DNA from: Entoloma clypeatum
Lineage: Eukaryota; Basidiomycota; Agaricomycetes; Agaricales; Entolomataceae
NCBI GenBank assembly: GCA_963565915.1
Contig: OY751487.1
Coordinates: 2,542,001 to 2,606,000, forward strand
Direction: 5' to 3'
Length of the DNA: 64,000 bases
The notes under the pieces are model-generated. The model was not told the origin of the DNA. It saw only the letters and a list, made by a program, of their open reading frames with translations, and did not search any database. Below are positions 3,463 to 36,568 of the stretch, piece after piece. The translations under genes and the position numbers were made by a program. Each line of letters begins with the position of its first letter. The first letter of the stretch is position 1.

Positions 3463-3469
3463 CCCCCCC
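3463..3469 (-). promoter_or_regulatory. Polypurine tract of the copia element
   Basis: Seven G on the minus strand lie directly upstream of the 3' LTR, where plus-strand DNA synthesis is primed in LTR retroelements. Confidence 0.75.
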
Positions 3470-3531
3470 ATATTTAGTACATACTTCTAAATACATTTTT
3501 ACTTTTTCCCATATAGGTACTCTTTCTTCGT

Positions 3532-5741
3532 CTAGTTCCTAAGTAATCCAATGTACAGGATAAACTTGTTGAAGAGGATTTTCCCCAGATTCTTAGTTAA
3601 AAGGTCTGCAGGGTTATTCACTCCTTCGATGAATTCGACTGTAATAATCCCTTCGGATACTTTTTCTCTGACAAAGTGGAATTGCACGTCGATGTGCTTG
3701 GACCGCTTCTCAGTTACAGGATTGGATGCGATAAAGATGGAGCCATTGTTGTCTCCATAGATCGGAACTGATCCGATCTGCATTCCAAGTTTGGCAAGCA
3801 TGCTTCTAAGCCATGTCACTGCGCGACTGCAATCTGATAGCGTCATGTACTCTGCTTCTGTGGAAGAGAGGGCAATGGTTTTTTGTGCCGATGAAACCCA
3901 TGTTACTGCTCCAGACGCCAGTGATATGAAGTAACCAGTGGTGGACTTTCTGGTGTTTTCGTCTGACGCCCAATCGGAGTCTGTAAATGCATAGATCCCT
4001 TTCCCAGAATCACCATCATACATGATTGCGTAATCTTTCGTTGCCTTCAAATACCTGCAAACATCCCTTGCCACTTCTAAATGGTGTTTGGTAGGGTTTG
4101 CGGAAAATTGGGACATTTTGATCACGGCGAAACAAATGTTGGGTCTTGTCCCGATCATTAAGTACAATAGTGATCCGATGACGGATTGGTACTTGGATCT
4201 GAGTTCCGCATTGGGTTCATCTTCAGACTTCATGGGTTTGTAGCCCATTGGGAGTGGGGTGTGGGTGGCATTGGATTCGCTCATCCCCATTCATGCGAGA
4301 ATTTTCTCAAGGTAAGGTACTTGATCAATGAAGTTTTTCTTCCCATGTTGCCTTATTTGGATTGAGAGAAATTCTTTCGGTTCCCCATTAGACACTAGGT
4401 GGCCTAGGTCCCTACATTCCCATGTTGTCATGAAGGCCTTCTTTTTCTCTAGCGTGTATTCTCAGTTTGTGCTGAGAAAAGCAGAGTCATCAACATAAAT
4501 GACGGCGATTACAGTTTCCCCTTTGGTACTTGTGTGAATGAAAACTCCCGCATCGGAGTGAAGCCGGACAAAACCGAGCTTTTTCATGGAGGAATCGAGT
4601 TCCCTCCACCAGGCTAATGCGGCCTGCTTAAGTCCGTATAGGGCTTTGTATAGTCCATACACGAAGTGTTCTTTCCCTTTTACTATGTAGCCCTCAGGCT
4701 GTCGCATGTAAATTACCTCACGGAGTGTTCCATAGAGGAAGGCTGATGAGACGTCCAGGAATGTCATGAACCACCCTTCAAGGGCTGTCAATGCCAAAAT
4801 CAACTGGACGGTCTCGTACCTCACTACCGGTGAGAAGATCTGATCGAAGTTGATCCCTTCTACCTGTGAGAAACCTTTTGCGACAAGGCGCGCTTTCAAA
4901 TGCCCGTCGGATTTTTTGTTGTAAACCCATTTGTTCCTTAGAGCTTTCCTCCCTGTAGGTAGGGGTACTAACTCTGTGATCACCCCGCGGCTTTTGAGCA
5001 TGTCTAGCTCTTTTCGTTCTGCCACATACCACTCTTCTTTGTTTGGAAGAGAGTATATATCTTTGTGTGACATTTTGATGATGCCCACTTGGATAGAGAT
5101 TGCCTCCATTAGGAGATCATTCATCCATGCCGTTTGACCGCCTAATCTCTGTCTTCGGTCTAATTTTTCAAGATCAGAAGCGGGAGTGTCTTCCCCATAG
5201 ATGCTTCCTGGCATCTTCCAAACTCGTCGTTCCCTGATCGGTCGATCTGGTACTTGTTCAGGTTCCGGAGTGGGTACTCGTGGGTCGTCATCGGGCTTGT
5301 TAGACGGCAAGTCATCATCTGATTCAGGGTGATCCTGTTCAGAAGGAACAGGGTCGTGAGGTTTTTCGTAATGACTGTCATTGTCATCATTTCCGGGGAT
5401 GAGGTCCTCAAACTCATCAGCCGGTTCTGGGTTTTCCATTTCTGGATGGTTTTCTGGCAAAGGGTCGATGTGGCATCTAGGGTACTTGCTTTCATCAAAG
5501 ATAGCTTTCCCACCCATGAAAATTGTATTAGTCTCAGGATCCATGAAACGGTATCCTTTGACCCCTGGTTTTGATCCGAGATAAATCATCAGTTGAGATC
5601 TAGACTCCAGGGAATTTCTACATTTTTCCTTTGGGATATACACATATGCCTGACATCCGAAGACTCTGATGCTTGACATATCGGGGATCTCATTGGTCAC
5701 CCTGAAGTATGGGGTATTCCATTTGAGACACTGCATGTTTG
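3532..5741 (-). pseudogene. copia pol, C-terminal half: integrase tail, reverse transcriptase, RNase H
   Basis: One reading frame runs from about 5741 to 3532. It starts with the C-terminal integrase region (motif IRVFGCQAYVYIP), passes an acidic proline-rich spacer, then gives the copia-type RT with RLVAKGFSQ, the aspartate at FLDVSSAFLYG and the catalytic YVDD. It ends with RNase H (STEAEYMTLSDC, then YGDNNGSIFIA and SKHIDVQFHFVRE). In-frame TGA codons at 4462-4464 (just after YVDD) and 4291-4293 interrupt it. Both positions read naturally as arginine CGA turned into TGA. The frame also differs from that of the integrase core upstream. The RT and RNase H active-site residues are otherwise kept, so decay looks fairly recent. 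Confidence 0.88.
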
Positions 5742-5990
5742 AAGCGCACGACACACCAGTGGCAGGACATCCAGGACAATATCGAACACATGAACTCCTC
5801 ACTCGCACCTACTGGTGGCCCAACATCCTACATGATGTAAAGAAGTATGTGAAAGGTTGTGACACCTGTCAACATAACAAGATCAGCCGCCAAAGGAGAC
5901 ATGCCCCTCTACACCCTAACGCCGCGCCAAGTCAACCATGGGAAGAAGACATAGGGATTGACGTCGTGGGACCGATACCAGAATCTGGGG
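5742..5990 (+). pseudogene. Gypsy integrase fragment lodged inside the copia pol
   Basis: On the plus strand about 80 codons encode the zinc-binding N-terminus of a Ty3/gypsy integrase: HDTPVAGHPG, then TYWWPN, then CDTCQHNK and IGIDVVGPIPES. This is an HHCC module of the kind seen in the chromoviruses further right. It has no LTR, is under 250 bp, and interrupts the minus-strand copia integrase between residues NRTP and LKWNTPY. Capture by template switching during reverse transcription, or as filler at a break, would explain it. Boundaries are accurate to perhaps 10 bp. Confidence 0.8.
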
Positions 5991-6825
5991 GGTTCTGTTG
6001 TAGAGAAACGCTGCATGTTCCAAACAGAATTCCCACCACATAGGGGGTAAGCATGCGTCGAAGCGCAAGGCCTGAGATTTCTCCCACAGGGTTCGATTTA
6101 TCCGTTCTGCTGGTGCTGATACGGGAGCGTGACGTTGATCAGAATTCCATGATCAGCAAGTACATCCTTGTATTCGTCAAACTCTCCACCTCCATCAACT
6201 TGCCATTTTTTAGGAGTGGCGGCGAACTGATTCTGAATCATTGCAAGAAATTGTCGCAGTGCCGTGATGCCATCCGACTTCTTTCTAAGCAAGACAACCC
6301 AGACGTGGGATGAAAAATCGTCCAAAAACATGAGGAAATATTTATATTTATGGTATGATGCCGTGGATATCTGTTTGAGATCGGAATGTATCAGATCAAA
6401 GGTTTTGGTTGCCCTTGTCATCGAATTGGGATATGACTGATTCAGCATTTTCCCTTTGAGGCAACCTGTGCAACTTTCCTGTGATTTCTCACGTACTAGT
6501 GTTTCAGGTACCCCTTTGGTACTGGTGGGAATCTTTCGGAGTGCTTGATCATTTGGATGATCAAGGTGCTTGTGCCATGTTTCGACAGTGATTTTGCTCG
6601 AGATCGCATGGATCTGGTCATAGCGTATTTCGGTGTCTAACCAGTAAATGGTTTGACCAAGGATGTGGGGCGAAAACTGGATTTTGTTCAGCCCTTTGGA
6701 GATGTTGATTTCTCCACGAGTCCTGTCTACTTTGTAACCATGGTTAAGAAAGACGCCTAGGGACAATAGGCGTGTGTCCATGTCGGGGATGTAGAATACT
6801 GGTCTGAGAAGATGGGTTTTAACTT
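5991..6825 (-). pseudogene. copia integrase core
   Basis: The GAG-pre-integrase zinc finger (HKHLDHP...CTGCLKGK) is followed by the catalytic core with FDLIHSDL and VDGGGEF, giving two aspartates of the DDE triad. At about 6087 a small deletion changes frame and removes the residues between QQNG and INRTLWEK. In this family those residues hold the catalytic glutamate (NGxAER), so the enzyme cannot be active. After the frame change the copia sequence continues to NRTP and then meets the gypsy fragment. Confidence 0.85.
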
Positions 6826-8054
6826 CCCCATTTAGGGTGTGCCGTACTGGAACGGCCCCAACTCTGAGTATTTCCAGTTTCTTTCCTTTAGCAGCAACTC
6901 ATGCGTAAAGTGTAAAGAGGCACCGGAATCTAATATCCATTGTGCGTGTTCTTTTTCCTTACAATATGTACAGGAGGCAAAATGTTTTATATATTTTATA
7001 TGTAGATCACTGCTGAAGTGATCTACGCAAACTGTACTCATACTGGCTAATATATTATACGTCTGTTGAGAGGTATTATTAGCGTTCCGCAATTGATAAG
7101 GTTTGAGAGAAAGTTTTGACGAACCATCAAGTTCAATCTCGTCCACAAACTTGTCTGGTCGTTGTCAGCATTGTTGGCGCATTTCTTCTGGTTGCGCCAG
7201 CGTCCTTTTCCCTTCTTCTTTTCAGAAGTGGTACTCTGGTCGGTCGAGTTAGGCTGCTCGTCAGCGTTGTTATGTGAGGTACTCGGCGCTGATTGCCTTT
7301 CCCATTTGGGGTCTTGCCCCTTTTGCTTAGTCCCGGAGATTTTCCGGGCCTGCTCGTTGGACGCCCGAGTAGACCCTATCGCATACTTGCGCCTGTACTC
7401 TGAAACGATGCTGTCGGTGACGGCCTGCCATGTGAAGTAATCAGCATCGTAGACCTGAAAGAGGGCAGTGGAGAGAGATGACCAAGCGTCAGGAATAGCA
7501 CTTGCCAAGATCATAGCCTGCATCAGATCAGGCACAACGAATTTTGAGTCGCTAAGGCGAGTGAAGAGTGACCCAAGGCGCTCAATTTCCGGCACAGGGT
7601 CCTGACCAGACAGTTTGAAAGAGGCTGCAGCTTTGAAATCACCAAATATGGTGGCGGGGGAGACCTTTGAATAAGCGTCCTTCAATGATGTCCAGGCATC
7701 TTTTGAGGTCTTGGCGTCTTTGATGTGCCTCCTGATTGCCTCGGAGACTTTGAGGCGGATGGAGCCTAGAGCCATGTCATCGTCCCTAATCCAAATCTTC
7801 CTTTCCTTGTGGAAGGCAGGTTGGTCGACGGTAGTGGTGACCACCGGAGGTTGAGTCGCAGACGTTGAGGTGGCGGAGGCAGGGGTGGAGACCGTGACCG
7901 TAAAGTCCGCGATGTCAGGGCGCTCAATGTCGCCGGATACGATGCGCCAGACTCCTTGATGGAGAAGGTACGACTTCATTTTCTCGGCCCAACTCTGGTA
8001 GTCGATGCCGTCGAAGACGGTGATGGAGTCGAGGGCGGAGCGAGAGGTAGACAT
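6826..8054 (-). pseudogene. copia gag and protease
   Basis: Gag starts at 8054 (MSTSRSALDSITVFDGIDY). It contains the UBN2/Retrotran_gag fold typical of copia (W.RIVSGDIERP region, SLKDAYSK, LSDSKFVVPD), then an S/T/K-rich tail. The expected CCHC zinc knuckle after KGRWRNQKKC is missing, and the frame changes near 7110. The protease follows in another frame with the active-site motif LDSGASLHF near 6920. An upstream in-frame start at 8084 adds 10 residues; the downstream one fits the family better. Confidence 0.82.
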
Positions 8055-8395
8055 TTTTAATGAGACTAAAAGGAGTTCTCCCAATCAGTGATGTTCTTGA
8101 TTTTAGAGAAAACAAATGAATGATTCCTCATAACATATTCCCTTCAGGAATAGCGGTTGTGGGAAAAACCCTTTTTGTCAGAAGTGTATGAGGTACGATC
8201 AACGTTTCCACATGATGTGTACTAAGTCAATCCCCTTAGGGACGCTTCATGACAGGTACTTGTCGTAATGACGTTCCCAGGTTCATATGTGAAGAAGTAT
8301 GACTCAGAACCTAGATCTTTCGATCGGTTCTTTGCCAACCAGGGTAGAGTGGGCAGGTACTCGCTATTGCCAGCGTTCCCAAGTCCCTCTGCTAT

Positions 8396-8410
8396 CCAGG
8401 GCCCATAACC
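8396..8410 (-). promoter_or_regulatory. copia primer-binding site, initiator-tRNA-Met anticodon type
   Basis: Directly after the 5' LTR the minus strand reads GGTTATGGGCCCTGG. GGTTATGGGCCC is complementary to the anticodon stem-loop of eukaryotic initiator tRNA-Met (GGGCCCATAACC in standard iMet sequences). Priming from the anticodon region, using a half tRNA, is known for Drosophila copia and yeast Ty5. Confidence 0.75.
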
Positions 8411-8588
8411 TGTTGAAGTTCCACCTGGGTGCTAGCCGCAGATGTACTGAGCAACACAGCTACAGTGGAAGTACTCTACTCTACCATTCTAGTCACTTAC
8501 TTGGTTGAGAAGGGTGAGGCTGGTGAGAGTGGTTGAGGCTGGTAAGAGCGATGGAGCTGGTTAAGAGTCAAGAGACAACTTATTGATA
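8411..8588 (-). repeat. copia 5' LTR, truncated
   Basis: It matches 3153-3330 of the 3' LTR with four substitutions. Homology stops at about 8588, where unrelated sequence begins, so roughly 130 bp of the outer (U3) part is missing. The promoter end of the element is therefore lost. Confidence 0.88.
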
Positions 8589-8699
8589 TACAAAGACCTT
8601 CAAATTTGGCACTTCAGCTCCACAGTGCTGCAAAGAGCTGCATAGCATATAGGCCAAGCTGCAACAAGCTGCAACATCTTTGGCAAAAATCAGTGTTTG

Positions 8700-21679: not shown

Positions 21680-22176
21680 TGTAAGGGCAACCATCCAATT
21701 TCCTTAGTCTGACATCTCCAACTCTTCTCCAATGCCTCCGACTGGTCTTCCAATCCTCTGACCGCTGTGGTACGTCTATTATTTATATTACTATATGTTA
21801 CATTTCCTTTCTTTTCCATCTCTCTTTCAACACCTCCGACGACCTCTAACTATACTCTGCATCAGAGTGCATGTCGGAGTGATGATTTATACCACCACAT
21901 GCACACTTCCAATTTACATATTCTGTTCCCATTCCTACTTCCAATCTTTGTCATATTTCAACATTCCTCTCCTCATTTCCAATTCTCGTCGTCTATATAG
22001 CTGTCTAGCTTGCAAGGGAATCCTCAGAACTTTCTCTTTGGATTTTCCTTGCAAGGTACGCCTTGTATTGTACTTTGTAGAGTCTAATTTAACTTTGGAT
22101 TTCCCTTGCAAGCTGTCTGACGTTGAAGTCACTTTGGAGCACTTTGGAGTTGTTGGATCATAAGGTCGCCCTTACA
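21680..22176 (+). repeat. Old chromovirus 3' LTR
   Basis: It is 497 bp with TGTAAGGGC and GCCCTTACA ends. A polypurine tract (GAGGAGGGGAAA) directly precedes it at 21668-21679. Inside, TATATA at 21994-21999 is followed about 27 bp later by AGAACTTTCT (22026-22035), the same self-primer sequence as in the younger element. Confidence 0.9.
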
Positions 22177-22557
22177 GCTGTTGGGTATGAAGGGAGGCCG
22201 TTGGGCACAAAGGGAGGCTGTTGGGGAACGAGGGGAGGCCGTTGGTGATGAGAGATGGCCGTTGAGCATGAGTGGAGGCTGTTGGGGCGAGGGGCAGCCA
22301 TTGGGAATGAGGAGAGGCTGTTGGTGTCAAGAGACGGCTGTTGGGCACAAGTGGAGGCCGTTGGGCACAAGGACAGGCCGTTAGTGACAAGGGGAGACCA
22401 TTGGGATGAGAGACAGCTGTGGGGCATCAGTGGATGCTGTTGGGCATGAGGGGCGGCTGTTGGGAACGAGGGGAAGCTGTGAGGAGCGAGTGGAGGCTGT
22501 TGGGCATGAGAGGCAGCCATTGAGCATGTGGGGCAGCCGTTGGGCGCAAGTGGAGGT
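22177..22557. repeat. 20-bp minisatellite, about 19 copies
   Basis: Degenerate tandem units close to GCTGTTGGGCATGAGGGGAG start exactly at the end of the old LTR. Because 20 is not a multiple of three, both strands stay open by chance and produce spurious ORFs of up to about 146 codons. No protein function is claimed. Confidence 0.85.
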
Positions 22558-23588
22558 CCTTCACAAGGGTCATGAGGCATTGGATGATCCAAAGTCATGT
22601 GACTCTGTGAACTGACTCACTGTTTACTTCACAATATGTTCCAGGAGCAAACTGGGGTGCCAATAAAAATATGACCCATGTTTTTTCTGCCAGTATGATC
22701 ACATATCAAAGATCTATTTTCAAATATGATTGCTGTATTTGCACAGTGCAAATGGAGAAACACACTATGGACCACATTTCAAACATGATTCATCTTTGAC
22801 TGCAGCATACATCATAAAGAATTTTTCTAATATACATCTGACTCATTTTTGAAAAAAGTTTCACTATTTGTTTCACAATTTGTGCTTCCTTCCTATCGTG
22901 AATATATTTTTAGTTTGTTTCGCCATATATTCCATGAACAGAAGATGTTCAAACCAGATATTTGAGCCCAGAACACATGATGAAACTTATGATGATCACA
23001 TAGTGAATTTGTTTTCCCTTTTATGCCCTGGATTAATGGCAAAATAAAATACTTATTTGTTTCAGATTTATTTTGCATATGCTTGTGGGATATAGAAGCC
23101 CATGCCCGCAGTGTATAGAATCAGTGGAGCATCAGATTCTGATATTTCTGATACCCCCTCAAATAATTGATTCAATGAGTTTCTGTTTTAAACTGATCAT
23201 ATCTCCATGGATACTAATTGAAATTACATGAATGGTTTTTTGATGGATGGCCCTGATCATGTGCTTCCTTCCATATACCAACACCTTGGTATTATTCATA
23301 TCAGATCCAAAGTTATTGAACAAATATTCAAAAAGTGTCAAACATTGAATCAATTTTTTGAGTCACTGTATGAATATGAAATGCATGATAACAACATGTG
23401 GAGATGCAGAGGAAACGGATGTCTGGAATATCAGAGGACAATTGGAGTGAATCGCAGCTTCAGAAAATGAATATAACATTTTTACAAGATGTTGAGGTGT
23501 TTATCTTGTCTAACATCATGATTTGTAAATTACCCAGCAATCAGAAATAGACTTGTAGATTGGAATTGATGAATATATATGTGCTCAT
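22558..23588. other. AT-rich DNA with a dispersed-repeat copy, left flank of element A
   Basis: No gene was recognised. 23163-23385 matches the repeat at 487-690. 23490-23570 resembles 36630-36730 on the far side of element A (shared GTCT/AACATCATGATTTG core), so element A landed in a field of this repeat. Confidence 0.6.
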
Positions 23589-24301
23589 TGTTATATCCGT
23601 CTCCGAACCTCCGATCCACTCCGATCGTCCTCCGACATTCCGGACATCCGTTACCTCCGCGTCTCCGCACGTTGCCATCGTGCATTTCATATTCATAACT
23701 CCATGCCCTTATCCATTTCATATTCATATTCCCGTTTACTTATGCATCGCCTTTTCTGCATGGTCCGTTGACCGACATCTCCAATGTTCGTTACAGTCGC
23801 TGGCAACTTACGCCACAACTCCGGACCTACTCCGACCATCTCCGTAAAGTAATATCATTTAGGTATTTAAGCTCGTACCATACCTATAGTTCCTCAGTTC
23901 GAATATCAACAAAGTTCACTCCTCTACTCCCCGTTCATGCCAGAGATCCTCGCTGTGGTACAATACGCCGACGACATCCTCATCTACTGCTCTTCCTCCA
24001 TCGTTACCCTTCGACGAGCTCAGTACTGTGTCCGAGTTACAACTCCGACATCGTCCGACCATTTCCACGTCAACATGTCTTTCACCGAGATCTTTCCGAG
24101 GACCTCCGCATCTCCGACCTCTCCTCCGACCTCCTGAAATTGGGACACCTTATCCAACAAACGGCGGCGCAACACATACGTTGAAGCCACGTCCCTCCCC
24201 TTCGTTGTTCCTCCGCATTTCCGGAGTTCCACTCCGGTCTCAGTCCTACGTCCAACCTCCGACGGACTCCGACAAAGCTCCGACTTTTCACCTACTTAAC
24301 A
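23589..24301 (+). repeat. Element A 5' LTR
   Basis: It is 713 bp. TATTTAA at 23864-23870 is followed about 26 bp later by AGTTCGAATAT (23896-23906), the presumed mRNA start and self-primer. Rich in CTCCGA-type words. Confidence 0.94.
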
Positions 24302-24303
24302 GT

Positions 24304-24314
24304 ATATTCGAACT
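24304..24314 (+). promoter_or_regulatory. Self-primer binding site of element A
   Basis: ATATTCGAACT lies two bases (GT) after the 5' LTR and is the perfect 11-nt reverse complement of AGTTCGAATAT at 23896-23906 in the LTR. Confidence 0.8.
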
Positions 24315-24997
24315 CAAACCGTTTTTGGATTCCTGCTAGTCATGGCACTCCGAAACACCAAGACAGCAAAAGCCGCAGAAGCTGGCACTTCTAGGCAACA
24401 GGTTCTACAAAATGTCGAACAACGTTTAACAGCACTATCCCCCATAACTCCCACTACTCCGACACCTCCGGGTTTTCAGCCCATCACACCTCCGCATAAT
24501 ATTCCGATCCCCACTTCCCCCATAGAATCCGCACCCCTGTCTCCTCAGAATATTTTCGGCCCACAAGCCCTTGCGGATGCTTTCCTCTTAATGACCAATG
24601 AACTCAAACGCAGCAAAGGTCACAAGCATCATAAAAAGGCTAAGGATCCGGACACCTTCGACGGTTCCGATTCCCGGAAACTGAACCAGTTCATCCTCCA
24701 ATGCACATTGTTCTTCCGCGACAACTCCGAGTATGACGATGACACTGCCAAAATCACTCTCGCCATCTCTTTCCTCCGAGGCACAGCTCTCGATTATTTC
24801 GAGCATTTCATCATCGAACCGGACCCGGACAACCCCCCGGACTGGTACGAAGATTGGTCTGCATTCCTCCGCACACTCCGCACGGAATTTGGGGTCATTG
24901 ACCCCGTTGCGGATGCTGCCGACTCTCTGGACAATCTCAAAATGCGCGAAAATCAACATATTCTCAAGTATAATATCGAGTTCACACGCCTTGCTGC

Positions 24998-25513
24998 TGT
25001 TAAGAACTGATCGACAAAACGTCGGAGCTACGTCGGACGCGTCGGAAGGTCGGAAGGTCGGAGCGCGTGCAACGTAGGGGCAAGGACTTGGCTTCAACTT
25101 GTGTGTTGCGCCCTCGCTAATACGTTGGTGTCCTTATTTCGGAGGATCGGAGGATCGGAGGATCGGAGGATCGGAGGATCGGAGGATCGGAGGTCGGAGG
25201 TCGGACTCAAGTTAAGAGTCGGAAAGAGGACGGGAGGTATGATGTCGAATCTAAGTTGATATTCAAACTGAAGCTAATACACGATTCTACATAAGTTTAA
25301 ATACTATGTCGGAGGACGTGTGGCTTCGTCGGAGTCGGATAACGAGTGGCTGTCGGAGATTCTTAACATAAGTAAAATGGTCGGATGTAAGTAATGTACG
25401 TAGTAACGAGATTCATAACAGTAAGTATGCATAATAAGTATTAGTCAAAATGTCGGAGGTGTCGGAGGTGTCGGGATTGGTCGGAAATCGTCGGAATGGA
25501 TCGGAATGTAACA
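24998..25513 (-). repeat. Element B 3' LTR with CGGAGGAT array
   Basis: It is 516 bp. On the plus strand six tandem copies of an 8-bp unit (GGAGGATC) lie at 25141-25188 and continue as GGAGGTC units; the other LTR has five. The polypurine tract abuts at 25514-25530 (minus strand CTAAGGGGGAAATAC), very similar to CTAAGAGGGGAATAC before the A 3' LTR. Confidence 0.94.
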
Positions 25514-25679
25514 GTATTTCCCCCTTAGGGCCGAACCCATGAGGCCTAAGGACCTAGGTGGTCGGTGCGCGTGAACTGTGTCATGTGATGCGTTGGTTGA
25601 AAATACCGTCTGAGTGGTTTTTTCTTCTTGTTCCCCCATTCTCTTTTCGTTTTAAACTCTTCCGAAAATAAACCTCAAT

Positions 25680-26655
25680 ATGTCGGCATCCGATTTTCAA
25701 AAGGAGATGGAGGCGCTGCAGGCTAAGCTCGCGGAGGTGGAGGCGAAAAAGCGAGCAGCGGAGGAGGAGGCTGCAAGGAAGGCTGAGGAGGAGCGGAGAG
25801 CGGAGGAAGAGAGGGCTGCGGAGGCGGCGCGGTTAGCGGAGGAGATGCGGGTAGCGGAGGAGATGCGGGTAGCGGAGGAGATGTGTCGGGCGTCGGAGCT
25901 GGCGGCTCAGAAAAGGGCCGATGAAGTGGCCGCTGCGCAAGGCGCATCGAGCAAGGGGTCGGGGGAGCCGCAGGTGGAGAAGAAGAAGAAGACGACGAAG
26001 AAGAGGAAGGTGGAGGAAGTGTCGGCGATGGTCGGAGAGGGGTCGGGAGTCGGGGTCGGGGTCGGCACCTGTGATAGGTGCATTGTGAAGGGCGTTGAAT
26101 GCGAACACGATGAGTAAGTCCCTCTTTGGTTCGTCTCTTCTGTTTTAACCTTGTGTTTTTAGGAATAAGTCGTCCTGCAAAGGATGTATCAAAGACAAGA
26201 AGAAGTGCGAGGTCGGAGCGTCGGAGGGGAAGTCGGAGGTGAAGCGCACGGTGAAGGTGAAGGGAAAAGGGAAAGCGACAGAGGTCGGAGGGTCGGAGTC
26301 GGAGGTGACGCTGTTGAGCGTCTTGAAGGAGATTTTGGTGGAGACGAGGCAGATCCGAAGACTGCTCTCAGCAGTTGAAGGAACTGTCAACATTGCATAC
26401 GTGCCAGAGGAAGTGGAGGAATCGGAGTCGGAGTCGGAGGGATCGGGGAAGTCGGAGGTGAATGAGGAGATAGAGGAGTTGAGCCTGGAGCAGAGGCTGG
26501 TGAAGAAGATCAAGCAAGACATGTTGAATCGGAAGAGGTTGGATATGCCGGAGCAGTCCGACATGGACATATCGGACGAGTCGGAGAAGGCGGAGTCGGA
26601 GGGGGAGTCGGACAAGGAGGAGGGTCCGTCCAACAAGAAACAACGTACTAAGTAG
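25680..26655 (+). CDS. Antisense element gene (B copy): coiled-coil Zn2Cys6-like protein, two exons
   Basis: Exons 25680-26113 and 26163-26655 (927 nt, 308 residues) with a 49-nt GT-AG intron (GTAAGT...TTTTTAG) in phase 2. It lies opposite to gag-pol, 166 bp inside the 3' LTR and 28 bp from the pol stop. Residues 1-90 are a Glu/Ala/Arg/Lys-rich predicted coiled coil (EEEAARKAEEERRAEEER), then a basic KKKKTTKKRKVEE stretch that could be a nuclear signal. Six cysteines follow, spaced CX2CX6CX8CX2CX6C (CDRCIVKGVEC; CKGCIKDKKKC); the intron splits the two halves. The C-terminus is acidic and ends in NKKQRTK. The spacing fits fungal Zn2Cys6 DNA-binding clusters. Function is inferred, not shown. 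A homologous gene sits at the same place in element A. Confidence 0.8.
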
Positions 26656-26683: not shown

Positions 26684-29600
26684 TCAGAGCGATGTGAGCG
26701 GACCCGGTTTGTCGGGATAAGCGGAGTGAAAGTCGGAGACAAGCTCGGGGGCGTTTTCCAATTCATTGGCTGGTAGCCAAGAGAATTCTTCATCAGTGTT
26801 TTCATATCCTAACCAACGGACGAAATATAGTAGCTTGCAGCTACGTCGTCGGTCGATCTTTGAGTCGACTATTTCAGCGATCTCGTACTCAAGTTCTCCG
26901 TCAATGTCAATCGGAGGAGGCGGAGGTTGGGTCCGATTCGGAATGGTGTTCGGAGTTGCGGGTTCAAGCATGGAGACGTGGTAGACAGGGTGAACACCGC
27001 GGAATGTGTCGGGGAGTCGGAGGGTAAAGGAGTGTGTGCCGGGTTGTGCAATGATCTCGTATGGTCCCAAGTACTTTTCTGAGAGTTTCTTGGATGGGCG
27101 TGTTGTGCGGAAGAACTGTGCTTTGACGAAAACCTGTTGTCCGACAGAAAATGTCGGAGGTGCGATCCGATTATTGTCGGAGGACTTCTGGTAACGTCGT
27201 TGAGCGTCGGAGATGGTGGCTTTCAGTTCTTGGTGAAGTTCATCTAAGTCGGTCACGAAGGATCGGGCTCGGGAAGAGGCGAGGTCTCGTTCCGGGTGAA
27301 CAGTAATGTTCGGATGGTAACCCTTGTTAGCAAAGAAGGGAGATATGCCAGTGGTAGCACTAGGTGCGTTGTTGTACGCGAACTCCGCAATCGGAAGGAG
27401 AGCGGACCAGTTGTCCTGTTGGTAGTTGCAGAATATCCGCAAGTACTGTTCGAGGGTCTGGTTAGTGCGTTCGGTTTGGCCATCGCCTTCGGGGTGGTAA
27501 CCGGAGGTGAAGTGGAGGGTCATGTTTAGAGCCTTTCCGAGAGATCGGAAGAATCGGGAGACGAATTCGGGGCCGCGGTCGGAGGTGACATGTTCAGGGA
27601 CGCCGTGTTTAGAGAAGACGTGTAGTACGAAAAGTACGGCAAGGTCTTCGGAGGTGCAATGAATTGTTGTCGGAATGAAAATACTTTGTTTCGTTAATCG
27701 GTCAACGATAACGAGGATTGAATCAAAGTTGTCGGAGGTTGGAAGGGTCTCGATGAAATCCATTGAGATAGAATTCCAAGGACGTTCGGGGATCGGAAGC
27801 TGTTTGAGTAGGCCGTAAGGCTTGTGTCTTTGTGGCTTCGATCGCATGCAAGTGGTACATGACTTGCAATAGTGTTTAACGAAATCTCGTATTCCGGGCC
27901 AGGTATAATCACGCTGAATGAGACTGAGTGTCTTGTTCTGACCTGGGTGTCCAGCAAGCATATGATCGTGCTTGTGCTGTAGGACTCGGAGTCGGAGGTC
28001 GTCGGAGTCGGGAACGTATATCCGATCGTCATGTCGGAGGAAACCATCGGGGTCGAGAGACCAGCGGGGTTTAGGATCTTTAGAAAGAGTGTTGTAAAGA
28101 GTGTCGGAAGGGAGTGCTGTGAGTATGTCGTGGTGAAGCTTTTCTGTGTCCATGATAATGGTTGCACGGAGGACGGGCTCAAGGAGTTGAGTCGCGCGAA
28201 CTGAAGCGGAGAGCTGTTCTTGCGAAAAGACTGGTCGGAGGTTGGTCGGATTGATGTCGACGTAGTCGCTATTTCCCCCTTTAGGGTAGACATCCCAACG
28301 TCTAGTTAGAGAGTCAGGTTTAGTTCCCAATCGGCCGGGGCGGAATCGGATGACGAGGTTGAACTGAGAAAGGTATTCCGACCATCGGACTTGTCAGCAT
28401 GAAAGAACTTTGGTGGTGGCAAAATACTCGAGATTTTTGTGGTCGGTAACGACGTCAATCGGAGTACCGGAGCCTTCGAGGTAATGGCGCCAAATTTTAA
28501 ACGCTTCGTAGATGGCAAGAAGTTCCTTATCGTGGGTGTCATAGTTTACTTCGGGGGCCGTGAAGGTGCGGGAATGGAATGCGACGGGGTGGACTTCATT
28601 GTCGGAGGTGACTATCGACAGAATAGCCGCTAGGGCATAGTCGGATGCGTCGGTTTCGACAATTATCGGAGAGTCGGGAATCCAGTGTGTCAGGATCGGA
28701 GCGGTGGTAAATGCCTTTTTCAGGTCATTAAAAGCGGTTCGAGCGTCGTCGGAGAACAGCCAAGTGGCATGTTTCCTGGTTAAACGAGTGAGTGGAATAG
28801 TGATGCTGGAATAGAATGGAATGAAACGTCGGTAAAAGTTTGCAAAACCTAAAAAGGACTGGACGTCCTTCACTCTGCGCGGTTCAGGCCAATCCTGAAT
28901 AATCTTGACTTTCGCTTCCGACATTTTGAGTCCGTCGGGAGAAAGGATAAATCCAAGATATTCTACAGTTTCGGCAGAGAAGTCGCACTTGTCGGCGCGG
29001 GCGTAAAGACCATGTTGTCGGAGTCGTCGGAGGACTTCTCGGACATGTTTTTTGTGTTCCTCGGGGTTGTCGGAGTAGATCAGGATGTCGTCGAGGTAAA
29101 CGGTAACGCAGTTGTCCAGAAGGTCGGAGAAGATGTCGTTCATAAAACGTTGAAAGGCTGCAGGTGCGTTAGACAATCCGAATGGCATGACTAACCATTC
29201 AAATGATCCATAGCGAGTGCGGAATGCAGTTTTCCATTCGTCACCTTCAGCGATGCGGACTAGGTGGTATGCGTGTCGGAGGTCTATGGTGGTATAAACG
29301 CGTGCTTTTCCGGCAGTGGCTAAGAGGTCGGAGATGAGCGGAAGTGGGTATCGGTCCTTCTTCGTGATTTTGTTCAGGCCTCGGTAGTCGACGCATAGTC
29401 GGAGTGATCCATCTTTCTTTCGGACGAAGAGGATCGGAGCGCCGTGAGGTGAACTAGAAGGTTTGATGAAACCGATATTGAGGTGCTCATCGATGAAGTC
29501 TCGGAGGGATCCAAGTTCGGATTGCGAGAGTGAGTACATCGGACCAATCGGAGGGGAAGTACCTTCCTCCAAATTGATTTTGAGGTCGTACGGTTGGTGG

Positions 29601-30394
29601 GGTGCAAGGGTGTCGGCTTTTTTCTTACTGAATACATCAGCAAAATCGTGGTATTCCTCGGGTATGCCAGAGAGGTCGGGAGCGTCGTCGGAGACAGACA
29701 CGGAATTGGCGGAGATGTCGGAGAGGTGAACGCGGAAAGCGTATGCCCCAGGAGCTTTACATGCATGGAGATATGCGGCTGCATTGACCATGGTAATCTG
29801 TGGCGGGTCGGAGGTGTTCGGAGTGAGCGGATCGGAGGTGCCCATTGGAGAGGGCGGACACTGCAGAGGTGGCGGAGCTGCCTCAGCAGTCGACGTCGGA
29901 GTCGGACTCGGAGTGTCGGGTAACGTAGAACGGAATAAGATACTGCCCAATACCCAGTCAATCAACGGATTGTAGCGGGTGAGCCAGTTGTGTCCTAGAA
30001 CCAAATTACAAGACGAATCGAGGGTTGTCACGTAAAATGCGACGGTCAGAAGTTCACCGGAAGGAAATCGGAGAGGAAGATCGATAGATTGTGTGATATA
30101 CGTATTTGAAGAACCGTCAAAAAGTTTCAAAACCATAGGTGAAGGAATCGGAGTCGGAGATAAGTTTAAAGAAGAAATAAATCTGGTATCTGCGAAGCAA
30201 TGTGTAGAACCAGAATCAATAAGAGTCTTTATCGGAAGAGAATCGGAAAAGGTCGGAGATATCAAATCAATACATAGAGAGTTCGGATTTGAGAGAGCGG
30301 ACGCATTGAGTCGGAGGGTTTCCAAAGGTGCACGAAAGGAGTCAACGCAATCCCCAGTACGTGCTGGAATCTGAGGACTGCTTACTATTTTTTT
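26684..30394 (-). pseudogene. Element B pol: PR-RT-RH-IN-chromodomain, one nonsense codon
   Basis: Pol is in the -1 frame after gag and open from the slippery site at 30388-30394. Protease (LIDSGSTHCFADTRF), RT (SLRLCVDYRGLNK, VTVYLDDILIYSDN), RNase H (VTDHKNLEYFATTK), integrase zinc finger (KHDHMLAGHPGQNK, CKSCTTCMRSKP) and DDE core (SMDFIETLP, TSDRGPEF, DGQTERTNQ) are complete. The C-terminus is a chromodomain (LLYFVRWLGYENTDEEFSW, about 26840). The only break is TGA at 28394-28396 in RNase H; element A has CGA-type arginine there, so a CpG transition explains it. 28330 and 30325 are in the same frame. This copy is one base from an open pol. Confidence 0.93.
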
Positions 30395-31611
30395 GACTCG
30401 GTCGTCTTCTCCGATTTGTCCTCAGCTTGGGCCGCGCGGGCTTTTGCTTTGGCGTTAGAAGACGATTTCTTCGAGCAGTCGGAAGCCCGATGACCAACGT
30501 TGCCGCAAAACATGCATAAATTATTGTCAAATCGTCGTTGGCGTTCTTGGGGAGTTAATTTCCCATCTTTGCCAAGTTTGTCGGAGAGGGCGGATTTCGG
30601 AGAGGTGGATGACGATTTTTGTTGTTGTTGCGAGTTGGGTTTAGACGATGAGGAGTTGTTGTTGGAGGATGATGAAGCGGGGGTCTGTTTTTTGTCGGAT
30701 TTGTCGGATTTGTCGGATTTCGGAGTAGATTTGTCCGAGGAGCGCGATTTCTCGCGTTGACGTTCCCAGTAGCGAGCATCAATGTTATGGGCCATTACTT
30801 TCAACTCGGCGAGAGTTTTTGGTTTGGGAAAAGTCCCCAAAACGTCCTTGATGTGTTCCGCTAAACCGGTATAGTACCGATATCGGAGCGCGCCATCATC
30901 CCACTGCGTGCGAGCGGAAAGACGTTTGAAGTCCACGTTGTAACGTAGGATCTTCTGATTGTCGCGCATCCGAAGGTGATCCAGGCTATCCTCTGCTTCT
31001 CCGGTCGGATCGATAGGTCCGAATTCGGATCGGAGGATGTGCACAAAGGCGGACCAGTCGTCCAACCAGACAGAGTCGTCGTCGGACTCTCCCAAGAGGG
31101 TGGGCTCAAACCATTCGAGCGCGGTTCCTCGGAGGTACGACAGAGCGAAACTGACTTTGTTATCATCGTCGTCAAAAGCGGGGTTGTTTCGGAAATATAG
31201 CGTGCATTGTGCGAGGAAACTGGTGAGTTTCCGAGAGTCGGAACCGTCAAAAGTGTCGGGTTCCTTCGATTTCTTTTTCGGAGTTTTCGGAGTCTCTCTA
31301 CGTCGGAGCTCCTGCGTCATAAGCATAATTGCTTCGGCGAGGTTTGGAGTTTGCTCGCGACGGAAAGGATTGTTATCATCAAAAGGAGAGGTCGGCGATT
31401 TAAAAGGACGGAATTCTTCAGGAATCGGAGGTCCTTGTGTCTGAGGTGTTCGGAGACGAGGTGTCGGAGATATGGGGTCAGGTTTGGGTGCAGATTCTTC
31501 TGCGGGAATATCTTGGAACGTATGTAGAAATGTCGCCCTGGTGTCCTGCAGGTTTGAAGCTTCCGCTGCGGCTGCTGCTGCGCAGGAGTTCTGTGTGTTG
31601 CGGGCTGCCAT
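30385..31611 (-). CDS. Element B gag
   Basis: 408 codons, intact, starting MAARNTQNSCAAAAAAE. The capsid domain (EPDTFDGSDSRKLTSFL, YLRGTALEWFEP, AFVHILRSEFG) is followed by a serine/asparagine/glutamine-rich linker with SDKSDKSDK repeats. An intact zinc knuckle CMFCGNVGHRASDC and a basic tail follow. The stop TAG (30385-30387) directly follows seven A. The protein matches gag of element A along its length. Confidence 0.94.
   Translation of the reverse strand: MAARNTQNSCAAAAAAEASNLQDTRATFLHTFQDIPAEESAPKPDPISPTPRLRTPQTQGPPIPEEFRPFKSPTSPFDDNNPFRREQTPNLAEAIMLMTQELRRRETPKTPKKKSKEPDTFDGSDSRKLTSFLAQCTLYFRNNPAFDDDDNKVSFALSYLRGTALEWFEPTLLGESDDDSVWLDDWSAFVHILRSEFGPIDPTGEAEDSLDHLRMRDNQKILRYNVDFKRLSARTQWDDGALRYRYYTGLAEHIKDVLGTFPKPKTLAELKVMAHNIDARYWERQREKSRSSDKSTPKSDKSDKSDKKQTPASSSSNNNSSSSKPNSQQQQKSSSTSPKSALSDKLGKDGKLTPQERQRRFDNNLCMFCGNVGHRASDCSKKSSSNAKAKARAAQAEDKSEKTTESKK
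30388..30394 (-). promoter_or_regulatory. -1 ribosomal frameshift site in element B
   Basis: A AAA AAA directly precedes the gag TAG, with zero-frame codons AAA AAA. Slipping back one base gives the pol frame, which is open from here and matches pol of A (DCVDSFRA compared with DCVEPIRT). Element A has A AAA AAT at the same place (32663-32669). Heptamers of the X XXY YYZ type are the standard -1 signals. Confidence 0.75.
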
Positions 31612-31643
31612 AACTGGAATTTGAAATACGGATAAGCGAGTGG

Positions 31644-31655
31644 CAGTTTGAATAT
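31644..31655 (-). promoter_or_regulatory. Self-primer binding site of element B
   Basis: Two bases after the 5' LTR the minus strand reads ATATTCAAACTG. The LTR holds the perfect reverse complement CAGTTTGAATAT (minus strand of 31911-31922), about 26 bp downstream of a TATTTAAA box (31948-31955). The 12-nt match mirrors element A. Confidence 0.8.
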
Positions 31656-31657
31656 AC

Positions 31658-32165
31658 TGTTAAGAACTGATCGACAAAACGTCGGAGCTACGTCGGACGT
31701 GTCGGAAGGTCGGAAGGTCGGAGCGCGTGCAACGTAGGGGCAAGGACTTGGCTTCAACTTGTGTGTTGCGCCCTCGCTAATACGTTGGTGTCCTTATTTC
31801 GGAGGATCGGAGGATCGGAGGATCGGAGGATCGGAGGATCGGAGGTCGGAGGTCGGACTCAAGTTAAGAGTCGGAAAGAGGACGGGAGGTATGATGTCGA
31901 ATCTAAGTTGATATTCAAACTGAAGCTAATACACGATTCTACATAAGTTTAAATACTATGTCGGAGGACGTGTGGCTTCGTCGGAGTCGGATAACGAGTG
32001 GCTGTCGGAGATTCTTAACATAAGTAAAATGGTCGGATGTAAGTAATGTACGTAGTAACGAGATTCATAACAGTAAGTATGCATAATAAGTATTAGTCAA
32101 AATGTCGGAGGTGTCGGAGGTGTCGGGATTGGTCGGAAATCGTCGGAATGGATCGGAATGTAACA
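31658..32165 (-). repeat. Element B 5' LTR
   Basis: It is 508 bp and identical to the 3' LTR except for one CpG change (31699 region) and one fewer GGAGGATC unit (five, at 31801-31840). It is directly followed by the target copy GCTGC. Confidence 0.94.
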
Positions 32166-32662
32166 GCTGCCAAAACGCACTGGGACAGCTCCGCCCTGCA
32201 TCACCGGTACTACTCCGGGTTGGCGGAGCGGATTAAAGATGTCCTTGGGACTCAAGCAAAGCCAAGCACGTTACCAGCACTTAGGGGGCTAGCACAAACT
32301 ATTGATGCTCGCCACTGGGAACGTCATCGCGAGAAGTCCCGCTCCGACAAGTCCGCATCCAAATCTGACAAATCCGAAGCTAAAACCCCCTCCGCAAACT
32401 CCGATAAAAACTCCAAAGCCAAACCACAGACACAGAACCAGGGCAAACAGTCGAAGCCTTCCTCCGCTCCCAAGTCCGACATCTCCGACAAACTCGGAAA
32501 AGACGGAAAGCTAACTCCGGAGGAACGCAAACGCCGTTTTGACAACAACCTCTGTATGTTTGGTGGCAAAGCTGGACACGTCGCGAAAGATTGCCTGAAG
32601 TCTTCGTCCTCCGCCTCTAAGGCCAAGGCGCGCGCTGCCCAAGCCAAGACCACAGATGAAAC

Positions 32663-34866
32663 AAAAAATTAGCGGGCAGTCCACAGGACTCTGTACGGCC
32701 TGAGGACTGCGTTGAACCCATCCGTACTACCGCTCTACTCAACGCTTCCGCTCTTTCCGATCCCAATTCCCTCCGTGTCCGACTTACATCTCCGCTTATC
32801 TCCGATTCTTCTCCGATAGCCGCCCTTGTGGACTCCGGCTCTACTCATTGTTTTATTGACTCCCGTTATGCTTCATCCTATAAACTCCCTTTCACCTCCA
32901 TACCTCCGATCGAACTTAAATTATTTGACGGAACGTCCAACTCCGTCATTACTCAGGCGGTTGATCTCCTTGTATACTTTTCCTCCGGTGAATATATGGC
33001 CATTACAGCCTATGTGACTCCGCTCGATTTCTCCTGTTCTATGGTTCTTGGATACAACTGGCTCACCCGCTACAATCCTATGATTGACTGGGTATTGGGC
33101 AGTATTACTTTCCGTCCACAGCTCTTGAAGGAGTCTCCGACCTTGACGTCTTCTGCCAGGTCAGCTCCGCTACCTCCGCAGACCTCTCCCGATACTCCGA
33201 CCTCCGACTCCGGCACACCCGCTGCTACTCCGGACGTTGTTCCGAATATTGCATTGATAAATGCAGCTGCATTTGTGCGCGCCTGCAAACTTCCGGGTGC
33301 CCAATCCTTCCGAATTCACCTCTCCGACCACACGATCTCCGCCCAATCTGTTTCTATGTCCAAGGAACCTCCAGACCTCTCCCATATCCCAGAGGAATAT
33401 CACAATTTTGCCGATGTTTTTAGCAAGACAAAAGCAGACACCCTCGCTCCGCATCGTCCGTATGACCTCCACATCGAGTTAGAAGACGGATCGACTCCCC
33501 CTATTGGCCCTATGTACTCCATTTCACAATCCGAACTATCTGCCCTGCGAAACTTCATAGACGAACATTTGGCCATTGGTTTCATTCGCCCCTCTCACTC
33601 TCCGCATGGCGCTCCGGTCCTCTTTGTCCGAAAGAAGGACGGTTCCCTCCGCCTGTGCGTCGACTATCGGGGCCTGAACAAAGTTACCAAGAAGGATCAA
33701 TACCCTCTTCCGCTCATCTCCGACCTCCTTTCCACGGCCGGAAAAGTGCGTGTTTATACCACTCTCGATCTCCAGCATGCATATCATCTTGTCCGCATTG
33801 CCGACGGAGATGAATGGAAAACCGCTTTCCGCACTCGTTACGGATCGTTTGAATGGCTTGTTATGCCTTTTGGACTATCCAACGCCCCTGCCGCTTTTCA
33901 GCGATTTGTGAATGATATCTTCAGTGACCTCCTCGATGTTACAGTGGTGGTCTACCTCGATGACATTCTCATTTACTCCGATGACCCCGCCAAGCACCCC
34001 GACGATGTCAAGGAAGTTCTCCAACGTCTCCGCAAGAACGGACTTTACGTCCGCTCCGACAAGTGCGAATTTTCTGTCGACACAGTCAAATATCTTGGTT
34101 TCATCCTTTCTCCCTCCGGTCTCTGCATGTCCGAAACCAAGGTAAAGACCATTCAAGAGTGGCCTGAACCTCGAAAAGTGAAGGACGTACAGTCTTTCCT
34201 TGGATTCGCGAATTTCTATCGACGTTTCATTCACGGTTATTCGGACATCATTGTTCTGCTCACCCGACTCACCCGGAAGGGTACTCCGTTCCGTTTCTCC
34301 AACTCCGCACGGAGTGCGTTCAACGAGTTGAAGCTCGCTTTTACCAAAGCACCGGTCCTCACTCATTGGATTCCTGATCGACCTATTATCATCGAGACGG
34401 ACGCCTCCGACTACGCACTTGGTGCTATTTTGTCCATCCGGACCTCCGACGAGGAGATACACCCAGTAGCGTTCCACTCCCGCACCTTCACCGCCCCGGA
34501 ACTCAACTACGACATGCACGACAAGGAGTTACTTGCTATCCATGAAGCATTCAAGGTATGGCGACATTACCTTGAAGGCTCCGCTGCTCCGATCGACGTT
34601 GTCACGGACCACAAGAACCTGGAGTACTTCACCACTACAAAGGTTCTTACCCGCCGACAAGCCCGGTGGTCCGAGTTCCTCTCTCAGTTCAATCTCTTGA
34701 TTCGCTTCCGCCCTGGACGTCTCGGTACACGCGACGGACTTAGTCGCGGACTTCCACTCCGCGTATCCGGAGAAACCGGGCCCCTTATCACGCCTATAGA
34801 ACCGCACAAGACATTGATATTACAAAATAAAGAAAATAATAACAAAAAAATTAGAGGGGGGAGGGG
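32663..34866 (+). pseudogene. Element A pol, truncated after RNase H
   Basis: The frame opens at the slippery site and runs through protease (LVDSGSTHCFIDSRY), RT (FIRPSHSPHGAPVLFVRK, SLRLCVDYRGLNK, VVVYLDDILIYSDD) and RNase H (VTDHKNLEYFTTTK, RRQARWSEFLSQF). No stop occurs in about 700 codons. Homology to B pol ends after RFRPGRLGT, at about 34740. What follows is unrelated and then reads antisense through the small coiled-coil gene to a stop at 35092. Integrase and chromodomain are missing, so A cannot integrate by itself. RT and RNase H active sites are intact. Confidence 0.9.
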
Positions 34867-35828
34867 CTACTGGGTTTTGGCCTTCTTGGCCGGTGGACCG
34901 TCGTCCTCCGACTCATCCTCCGTTTCTCCCTCCGCCTCCTGTTTCTCTGCTTGCAGCTCCGCAAGCTCCCCGTCCGCCAACCCCTCGTCCTCCCCCTCGT
35001 CTTTTTCCTCGTCCTCTTCCTCTCCTTCTTCCTCTTCTCCGTCCTCCGTCTCCGACTCCGGAGCCGCCGCCTCCAGAAGGAAGTTCCGGTAGGCGAGGTG
35101 GTTGTTCATAATTTGAAGCTGCCGGAGCAGCGCCCAACCGACCCTCGCCGACTGCTCCTCTCTCTCCTCCAGAGCCTCCCGGAGCCCCCGGAGCTCCTCG
35201 GCGACCCCTGCGCCGCAGCAGCCTTTCGCCCTGCTCGGGCCCGCAACCTCCGCGACGGCTTCCTCCGTCCTTCCCCGTTTCCGCTTCGCCCGCGTCTCGC
35301 CGGCCTTCAGGCATACCCGTTTGCCGTCCTTGCACCGCTGGCATGCGGTGCCCTTCCCCTGCCTAAGGAGATTGTCAGTAAGAAAAAAGAGATGAAAAAG
35401 CGGGTACTCACAATGGCCACTTGCACTCCACCTTCGCCTGCGCACAGGCCTGACACGCCTCCCCCCGGACCTCCGAGTCCTCCGCTCCGCTCTCCGCCCT
35501 CTGTTTCCCCGCCTTCTTCGCCCTCTTCCTCTCCGCCTCCGCCTCCGCCTTCGCCTCCGCCTCTGCCTTCTTCTTCGCCTCTGCCTCCCTCGCCCTCCTC
35601 TCGGCCTCCGCCTTCTTCCTTGCCTCCGCCTCCTCCTTCTCCTTGCGTATCTGCGCCAGACGGCGCAGGAGCTCCTCTTCGGAGTCATCAAGGTTGGCGC
35701 TGGAGCGCGCGGGTTGTGTGTTTGAGTCTGGGGCATGTTGGTGGTAACTGGAAGAAAACCCTTGGGCCGCTCATCTCCGTTAAATAACCGAGACCACATG
35801 ACCTTGTTTATTTTCTCGCGGTCTTCCA
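34867..35828 (-). CDS. Antisense element gene (A copy): coiled-coil Zn2Cys6-like protein
   Basis: Exon 35412 and upstream joins 35362-34867 across a 49-nt phase-2 intron (35363-35411, GTGAGT...CCTTAG). The first exon encodes a Glu/Ala/Lys coiled coil (ELLRRLAQIRKEKEEAEARK), then CQACAQAKVEC. The second starts GKGTACQRCKDGKRVC and continues with a leucine-rich helix and a very acidic tail ending PPAKKAKTQ. The cysteine spacing is CX2CX6CX10CX2CX6C. The start is uncertain: ATG at 35828 needs a further weak intron (GTGGTC...TTCCAG, about 50 nt) to reach the coiled-coil frame. Position, intron size, phase and domain order match the B copy, though the sequence is strongly diverged. It lies between truncated pol and the 3' LTR. 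Confidence 0.72.
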
Positions 35829-35855
35829 TGGGTGTCAGACCTAAGAGGGGAATAC

Positions 35856-36568
35856 TGTTATATCCGTCTCCGAACCTCCGATCCACTCCGATCGTCCTCC
35901 AACATTCCGGACATCCGTTACCTCCACGTCTCCGCACGTTGCCATCGTGCATTTCATATTCATAACTCCATGCCCTTATCCATTTCATATTCATATTCCC
36001 GTTTACTTATGCATCGCCTTTTCCGCATGGTCCATTGACCGACATCTCCGATGTTCGTTACAGTCGCTGGCAACTTACGCCACAACTCCGGACCTACTCC
36101 GACCATCTCCGTAAAGTAATATCATTTAGGTATTTAAGCTCGTACCATACCTATAGTTCCTCAGTTCGAATATCAACAAAGTTCACTCCTCTACTCCCCG
36201 TTCATGCCAGAGATCCTCGCTGTGGTACAATACGCCGACGACATCCTCATCTACTGCTCTTCCTCCATCGTTACCCTTCGACGAGCTCAGTACTGTGTCC
36301 GAGTTACAACTCCGACATCGTCCGACCATTTCCACGTCAACATGTCTTTCACCGAGATCTTTCCGAGGACCTCCGCATCTCCGACCTCTCCTCCGACCTC
36401 CTGAAATTGGGACACCTTATCCAACAAACGGCGGCGCAACACATACATTGAAGCCACGTCCCTCCCCTTCGTCGTTCCTCCGCATTTCCGGAGTTCCGCT
36501 CCGGTCTCAGTCCCATGTCTGACCTCCGACGGACTCCGACGAAGCTCCGACTTTTCACCTACTTAACA
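35856..36568 (+). repeat. Element A 3' LTR
   Basis: It is 713 bp, the same length as the 5' copy, with about 13 substitutions. It is preceded by CTAAGAGGGGAATAC and followed by the target copy CTCAT. Confidence 0.94.

Follow-up and report, generated by a model that had tools for sequence, protein, structure and literature searches.

Element B, an LTR retrotransposon in the window (the whole stretch of DNA analysed, 64,000 nucleotides), carries a spliced gene on the strand opposite its gag and pol. By sequence criteria this antisense locus is a real gene, and we read its predicted product, with a probability of roughly 0.4, as a DNA-binding regulator that recognises elements of its own kind in the manner of Arabidopsis VANC. 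This antisense extra gene has a recognisable DNA-binding module, is under purifying selection, has hundreds of matches in the genome and comes with a candidate target word. Since candidate protein and candidate target occur in the same elements, both are directly testable in vitro.

Element B is a Ty3/gypsy chromovirus on the minus strand, running 5' to 3' as LTR, gag, pol, antisense-gene region and LTR. Pfam recognises gag, protease (RVP), RT, RNase H, integrase and chromodomain in it; rve, SH3_Tf2-1 and Chromo are all above cut-off, and the position of the chromodomain after the integrase makes the element a chromovirus. Over 518 positions the LTR pair differs by a single mismatch and eight gapped positions (BLAST), so the insertion is recent. 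The target-site duplication, read by eye, is GCTGC. B sits within the gag of a second element, C, which lies on the plus strand and whose LTRs (23589-24301 and 35856-36568) differ by 13 mismatches in 713. An earlier note on this DNA had described two exons opposite gag-pol, interrupted by a 49-nt phase-2 intron, and six cysteines spaced CX2CX6CX8CX2CX6C; the coordinates match base for base and the spacing is as described when read from the window translation. The joined exons give 308 stop-free codons plus TAG, between pol, which ends at 26684, and the 3' LTR. The features of element B are as follows.

24998..25513, - strand: 3' LTR (24997-25514 by BLAST)
25514..25679, + strand: polypurine tract plus the pyrimidine-rich leader before the antisense ATG (166 nt, counted from the LTR)
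25680..26113, + strand: antisense exon 1, open from ATG; coiled coil, basic patch, zinc half 1
25980..26009, + strand: basic patch KKKKTTKKRK (residues 101-110 of the translation), putative nuclear localisation signal
26070..26102, + strand: zinc half 1, CDRCIVKGVEC, like the second half of a canonical Zn2Cys6 cluster
26114..26162, + strand: intron, 49 nt, GTAAGT...TTTTAG, phase 2, separating the zinc halves
26163..26655, + strand: antisense exon 2; zinc half 2, C-terminus (helical, acidic) with tail GPSNKKQRTK, then the TAG stop
26176..26208, + strand: zinc half 2, CKGCIKDKKKC, like the first half of a canonical Zn2Cys6 cluster
26250..26550, + strand: swapped cassette in the C-terminal coding region (window copy against L026, L028, L029 and L030)
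26684..30421, - strand: pol (protease, RT, RNase H, integrase, chromodomain), with an in-frame stop near 28391-28393 in the window copy
30385..31659, - strand: gag, with CCHC knuckle
31658..32165, - strand: 5' LTR (31657-32166 by BLAST)

The N-terminus of the protein is rich in Glu, Ala and Arg and, judged by eye, resembles a coiled coil. The stretch 25514..25679 may act as the promoter of the antisense gene.

The gene is repeated across the genome. An own-genome DNA search with the B gene returned at least 44 matches (best 40 of 185 candidates scored). Six-frame protein searches returned at least 227 for B (best 150 of 349 candidates scored), and at least 169 (best 150 of 278) and 158 (best 148 of 282) for the corresponding genes of families C and D described below, these being matches rather than copies, as one gene may match once per exon. 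The B copy set began with 74 loci, 70 of them with both exons matched; the 4 with exon 1 unmatched were dropped, and removal of duplicates left 47. An unconstrained alignment places GT..AG at the intron ends in 41 of these; in L024, L056, L058 and L060 a TTTTAG lies six bases upstream of the aligned intron end, and L064 and L070 lack a recognisable intron of this kind. The pattern of a GTRHGT-type donor with TTTTAG is present in 45 of the 47. The gene adjoins an LTR match in 41 of 46 copies and at least 500 nt of pol in 33; a further 9 have 335-364 nt of pol, reaching about the end of the fetched stretch, and 4 are without a pol match.

In 27 of the 47 copies the reading frame runs uninterrupted from ATG to stop. 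Fifteen distinct lengths of exon 1 and 14 of exon 2 are present, with an equal remainder modulo 3 in 44 of 45 and 43 of 45 copies, respectively. Pooled over all pairs of the open copies, pN/pS (Nei-Gojobori) is 0.44 for the whole gene, 0.27 for the coiled coil, 0.43 for the basic part, 0.23 for the zinc module, the lowest of the zones, and 0.50 for the C-terminus. The earlier note had proposed a dN/dS test and a look at cysteine conservation. Whole-gene dN/dS is 0.21-0.45 in the 11 B pairs shown, which is purifying selection, with the restriction to open copies biasing the ratio somewhat downwards and single zones scattering up to 1.16 where counts are small. All six cysteines are kept in 27 of 27 open B copies, and equally in the seven C copies and the one D copy read. 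The median ratio is 0.42 in the gene frame versus 0.59-1.30 in the five other frames, 0.59 being that of one opposite-strand frame. Codon-level selection and frame-preserving indels rule out a chance reading frame in a biased region.

One part of the gene follows a history of its own. In the bins at 26250 and 26400 the window copy is 62-74% identical to L026, L028, L029 and L030, while in the same four comparisons identity is 88-99% across the bins of LTR, exon 1, gene end and pol, except that L029 diverges from the window copy beyond 27750. In pairs with L030, L059 and L066, C-terminal dS is 0.65-0.69 versus 0.07-0.16 at the N-terminus. Because synonymous divergence jumps along with the cassette, it is probably an old variant exchanged through recombination and not a product of fast protein change. 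L024 is a different mosaic, with a dS of 1.06 in the zinc module and 0.08 in the C-terminus.

Zn2Cys6 clusters (PF00172) follow the rule CX2CX6CX(5-16)CX2CX(6-8)C. The spacing in the 27 open B copies, the 7 C copies and the D copy obeys it, and such a fit has a chance of 1.5e-4 (3 of the 20,475 ways to place six cysteines over 30 residues when the two end positions are fixed). The module had been called Zn2Cys6-like on this ground, and the spacing does bear the name out; the isolated module, though, scores under the Zn_clus cut-off and its halves are apparently swapped. The full-length B protein has nothing in Pfam at E<=10, and none of the full-length B, C and D proteins matches Zn_clus there; isolated modules match it weakly in 7 of 8 cases (best E 0.0049). 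Native-order modules score 13.5 (B), 13.6 (C) and 14.0 (D) bits, under the cut-off of 21. When the halves were exchanged in silico, with joining residues of our choice, the scores became 21.0, 19.7 and 22.0, and the one host domain tried, at 58226, fell from 24.8 bits native to 14.6 swapped. A profile built from eight modules has Pho7 as its best, very weak match in PDB (E=1.7), the halves aligning in swapped order. The zinc halves of B, C and D therefore seem to stand in reverse order relative to Zn_clus, which would apparently explain why the module falls under the cut-off. Two native-order matches speak against a swap: that of C pairs its first half with the first half of Zn_clus, and one B module is matched end to end at 12.1 bits. 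Despite these two, the canonical arrangement, with the basic DNA-reading half first, does not seem to be that of the B, C and D modules.

The B, C and D modules share with fungal Zn2Cys6 factors (PF00172, Pho7) the six cysteines, CX2CX6C twice and a half-by-half resemblance; they differ in the apparently swapped halves, the score under the Pfam cut-off and the intron that separates the halves. Given its place, exon rearrangement is one possible origin of the swap. A swapped zinc cluster would be a natural experiment on a classic fungal domain. Zn2Cys6 proteins typically bind DNA at CGG triplets, and Pho7 binds TCG(G/C)(A/T)xxTTxAA, according to the parts of PMC5559640 consulted. Searches of NCBIfam gave nothing for the B and D proteins. 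Matches of the C protein to ADD_DNMT3 and GP67 are below cut-off and were put down to cysteine spacing and low complexity. In the protein database searched, no relative scored at E<=0.001, and no source gene was found.

The earlier note had described the gene for element B. It is not confined to B, as two further families of the same clade, C and D, carry one too. In the window, the gene of C reads as follows.

34867..35362, - strand: antisense exon 2, zinc half CQRCKDGKRVC, tail GPPAKKAKTQ
35363..35411, - strand: intron, 49 nt, GTGAGT...CTTAG, phase 2
35412..35830, - strand: antisense exon 1, zinc half CQACAQAKVEC, start uncertain

The window copy of C appears frameshifted near the N-terminus of exon 1 relative to L075. 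Among the C copies read (the window copy and six others), six cysteines and intron phase are kept in 7 of 7. Exon 2 dN/dS is 0.18-0.52 in the 15 pairs without L078, a copy that appears to have a frameshift; the 6 pairs involving it give 0.25-1.06. At 35828-35855 the antisense gene of C has a possible start codon about 25 nt off the 3' LTR, so its promoter would sit inside the LTR. Element C (23589-24997 and 32167-36568) seemingly lacks most of the integrase, the end of RNase H being almost directly joined to the end of the chromodomain near 34742-34790; the antisense gene is still there.

Families D, E, F and G come from four stretches of contig C1, picked among about 100 listed of 2421 places in the genome that are dense in the word described below. 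One of the four, D, has the gene; it is absent from the E, F and G stretches, and G appears, by eye, to be of copia type. The one D copy read has a 50-nt phase-2 intron, CISCLKAGDLC-X11-CWRCQRLKRSC and the tail VSNKKQRK. In the copies of B, C and D read, the intron falls between Cys3 and Cys4 in phase 2. BLASTP joins the B and D proteins at E=8e-6 across the zinc region and further; between C and D, for which it gave no match (E 8.8), the link is purely anatomical. Pol identity splits the families into two groups that share 29-46% with each other: B, C and D (B-C 72%, B-D 71%), and A2, E and F (69-82%); element A is tied to F by 28 residues of pol only. From the pol grouping together with the matches and anatomy of the gene, we read it as an old possession of the B-C-D clade, its sequence changing fast around fixed cysteines.

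The candidate target is TCCGA on the sense strand, which is TCGGA on the strand of the gene and occurs in B, C and D at about 4.5-7 times expectation. Sense-strand TCCGA:TCGGA counts are 148:17 in B (expected 20.1:10.2), 63:3 in C (12.4:7.8) and 18:2 in a 2.4 kb stretch of D (4.0:2.2). Bias towards one strand is overwhelming in B (p = 7e-12) and C (3e-10) only; in D (0.018) it does not exceed that of E (0.0078) and F (0.035), which lack the gene. These p values treat tandem units as if they were independent, which they are not. The densest words of B are in its 3' LTR, with 25 TCCGA and 0 TCGGA in 516 bp of sense strand, including an array of TCGGAGGA units near 25140-25200. Flanking the word in B, on the gene's strand, G precedes TCGGA in 61% and follows it in 66%. 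The window from 36600 onwards (27 kb) has 25:19 versus 27.3:26.9 expected.

In the gag-pol of B, TCCGA is the most over-represented sense-strand 5-mer (82 vs 12.9), and the top 7-mer is CTCCGAC (30 vs 1.4). Codon or amino-acid bias as its cause in gag and pol is ruled out by codon shuffles (z 6.4 and 10.3 in two pol pieces, 7.9 in gag; 0 of 1000 shuffles reach the count) and by the codon phases, 28, 23 and 31. For C gag-pol, CTCCG ranks first (43 vs 5.8) and TCCGA second (26 vs 5.4); codon shuffles give 11.5 for the 21 words in pol (z 3.8), which are phase-biased (12, 3, 6), and 2.7 for the 6 in the gag piece (z 2.4). The word is not clearly enriched in the antisense-gene region of C (3 vs 1.8 expected). 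Across the RT region, C has the word at only 12 of the 35 aligned B sites, so it is the density of the word more than its position that is kept. Against this, the shared fraction is not below that of CpG 5-mers in general (25%). A triple-word pattern occurs at the 2421 genome places mentioned above, versus 14 for a reversed control.

The word is not confined to gene-bearing families. TCCGA:TCGGA is 30:22 in the gene-less A (expected 9.0:9.3), 12:11 in the gene-less fragment A2 (2.3:2.5), 21:7 in E (3.3:3.3) and 19:9 in F (4.0:4.5), an enrichment that rules out a strict coupling of gene and word; G has 5:4. The top word of A is TCCGC (34 vs 4.8), and there TCGGA exceeds codon shuffles (z 3.0, 3.6), with z of 1.5 and 1.3 for TCCGA. 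CTCCGA and CTCCGC words are enriched in several distant LTR families, gene-less ones included, with varying strand bias. The LTR element at 3149-8589 has TCCGA:TCGGA at 5:8, yet CTCCG:CGGAG at 0:10 (expected 3.8:4.0). Protection of the word against CpG decay was not seen: in old copies decay is 14.2% at the word, 14.7% at CCG elsewhere and 19.4% at the remaining CpG. Over 26690-28150 of the B copies (42 of 46 aligned), transitions stand at 8.7% for CpG, 1.4% for other C/G and 1.7% for A/T; this excess in old copies suggests CpG methylation.

A mechanism can be sketched from these features. The gene would be an accessory gene of one fungal Ty3/gypsy chromovirus clade (B, C, D), with a transcript that starts on the 3' LTR side, runs antisense to gag-pol and is then spliced. 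Its antisense orientation would let the intron be retained, as reverse-transcribed sense RNA cannot lose it through this splicing, and so shows a way for an intron-bearing gene to live in a retroelement. The product is predicted to be a nuclear protein of about 310 aa, with a dimerising coiled coil, a basic nuclear-entry patch, a half-swapped Zn2Cys6-type module, a C-terminal part that is helical, acidic and variable, and lastly a basic tail. It would bind zinc and DNA, the putative target being words with a CGG, read as (G)TCGGA(G) on the strand of the gene, and dense words in one orientation would enable it to recognise copies of its own kind. Once bound, we infer, it most likely counters silencing or activates transcription, as VANC does for VANDAL transposons.

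According to the consulted part of PMC5735166, VANC binds arrays of short, uniformly oriented motifs and clears DNA methylation from the elements that encode it. The systems are alike in an element-encoded protein with conserved and variable regions and a dense short word in one orientation, which is found here in B, C and a short stretch of D. In contrast, VANDAL is a DNA transposon with a different protein, and its words, as far as that description goes, are mainly non-coding and family-specific; VANC binding is demonstrated (PMC5735166), whereas the B, C and D protein is known from its sequence.

In its more specific, anti-silencing form, the proposal is that a half-swapped Zn2Cys6 protein reads an orientation-specific TCGGA array and keeps its own copies unsilenced, the swappable C-terminal cassette letting subfamilies separate. 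We hold this form to be doubtful; it would be, to our knowledge, the first such system in an LTR element. Counting against self-recognition are the sharing of the word by gene-less families, E and F with a mild strand bias, the phase-biased words of C pol and the CpG decay from which the word is not spared.

Some of the same facts lend themselves to an accessory nuclear protein like gene23 of Grande, acting in import, integration targeting or cDNA handling, with the word unrelated to it, for example an RNA signal. GENE23 is reported to be nuclear in the part of PMC7264820 consulted, and both the presence of the word in gene-less families and its one-way enrichment are compatible with this. The typical DNA binding of Zn2Cys6 modules, the cysteines kept in all open copies and the lowest pooled pN/pS in the zinc module argue the other way, and we regard such a role as rather unlikely.

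The same DNA-binding protein might instead repress the element or control its copy number by damping the sense promoter in the LTR. HBZ of HTLV-1, a retroviral bZIP protein, dampens the sense strand in this way, and the two are likened by description, not sequence: each is a DNA-binding-type regulator encoded antisense from the 3' LTR side. The antisense promoter of HTLV lies in the 3' LTR, according to the consulted part of PMC7264820. The location of the B gene and an LTR in which the words of this element are most crowded (25 in 516 bp) would suit a repressor, for which there is no obvious reason to have words across gag and pol in all codon phases; we consider it unlikely.

The earlier note had proposed a captured or evolved DNA-binding regulator. 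Regulator is the most natural reading, given the selection and the Zn2Cys6-like module; capture is unproven, with no source gene found. A transcription factor captured from the host and acting chiefly on its genes would draw on a fungal host family, Zn2Cys6, that has a canonical member in the window (58226-58312), and is improbable with the halves swapped, no Pfam match above cut-off in native order, and B copies that sit in elements (41 of 46 adjoin an LTR match). An antisense RNA as the working part, through dsRNA or interference and with the reading frame incidental, is among the roles of antisense element transcripts discussed in the consulted part of PMC7264820 and is very improbable, being strongly opposed by dN/dS in two families and conserved splice sites, while codon-level selection and frame-preserving indels rule out an RNA-only function as the main role.

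The self-recognising regulator would join a known kind of gene. That antisense extra ORFs occur in plant gypsy elements had been noted before, and the literature agrees: plant elements are known to carry antisense genes between pol and the 3' LTR, their function being unknown according to the consulted part of PMC7264820. A fungal element, Boty, has one too. The B gene resembles the plant aORF-3R of Grande (gene23), RIRE2, Retand and PvRetro13 (PMC7264820), likewise antisense additional ORFs of LTR elements, in being antisense, lying between pol and the 3' LTR and being kept in many copies. It differs in its conserved intron, which interrupts a Zn2Cys6-like module, and in belonging to a fungal genome; a zinc cluster goes unmentioned for the plant ORFs in the part of that source consulted. 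The fungal gene is brtn of Boty/BcGypsy1 in Botrytis cinerea (PMC8365987, PMC7264820); set side by side by description, the two are alike in kind, and the descriptions of brtn are silent, in the parts consulted, on a zinc cluster, an intron or a word array. The words 'antisense' and 'zinc' are absent from the main text of two papers on fungal transposable elements (PMC3411680, PMC2864245), and among the matches listed in a search of titles and abstracts no antisense Zn2Cys6 gene was recognised.

Two further observations concern the window outside element B. The canonical, probably host, Zn2Cys6 domain at 58226-58312 lies on the plus strand, about 32 kb from the B gene, and its 24.8 bits are above the Pfam cut-off. 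A degenerate repeat array at 22163-22564 has units mostly 20 nt apart.
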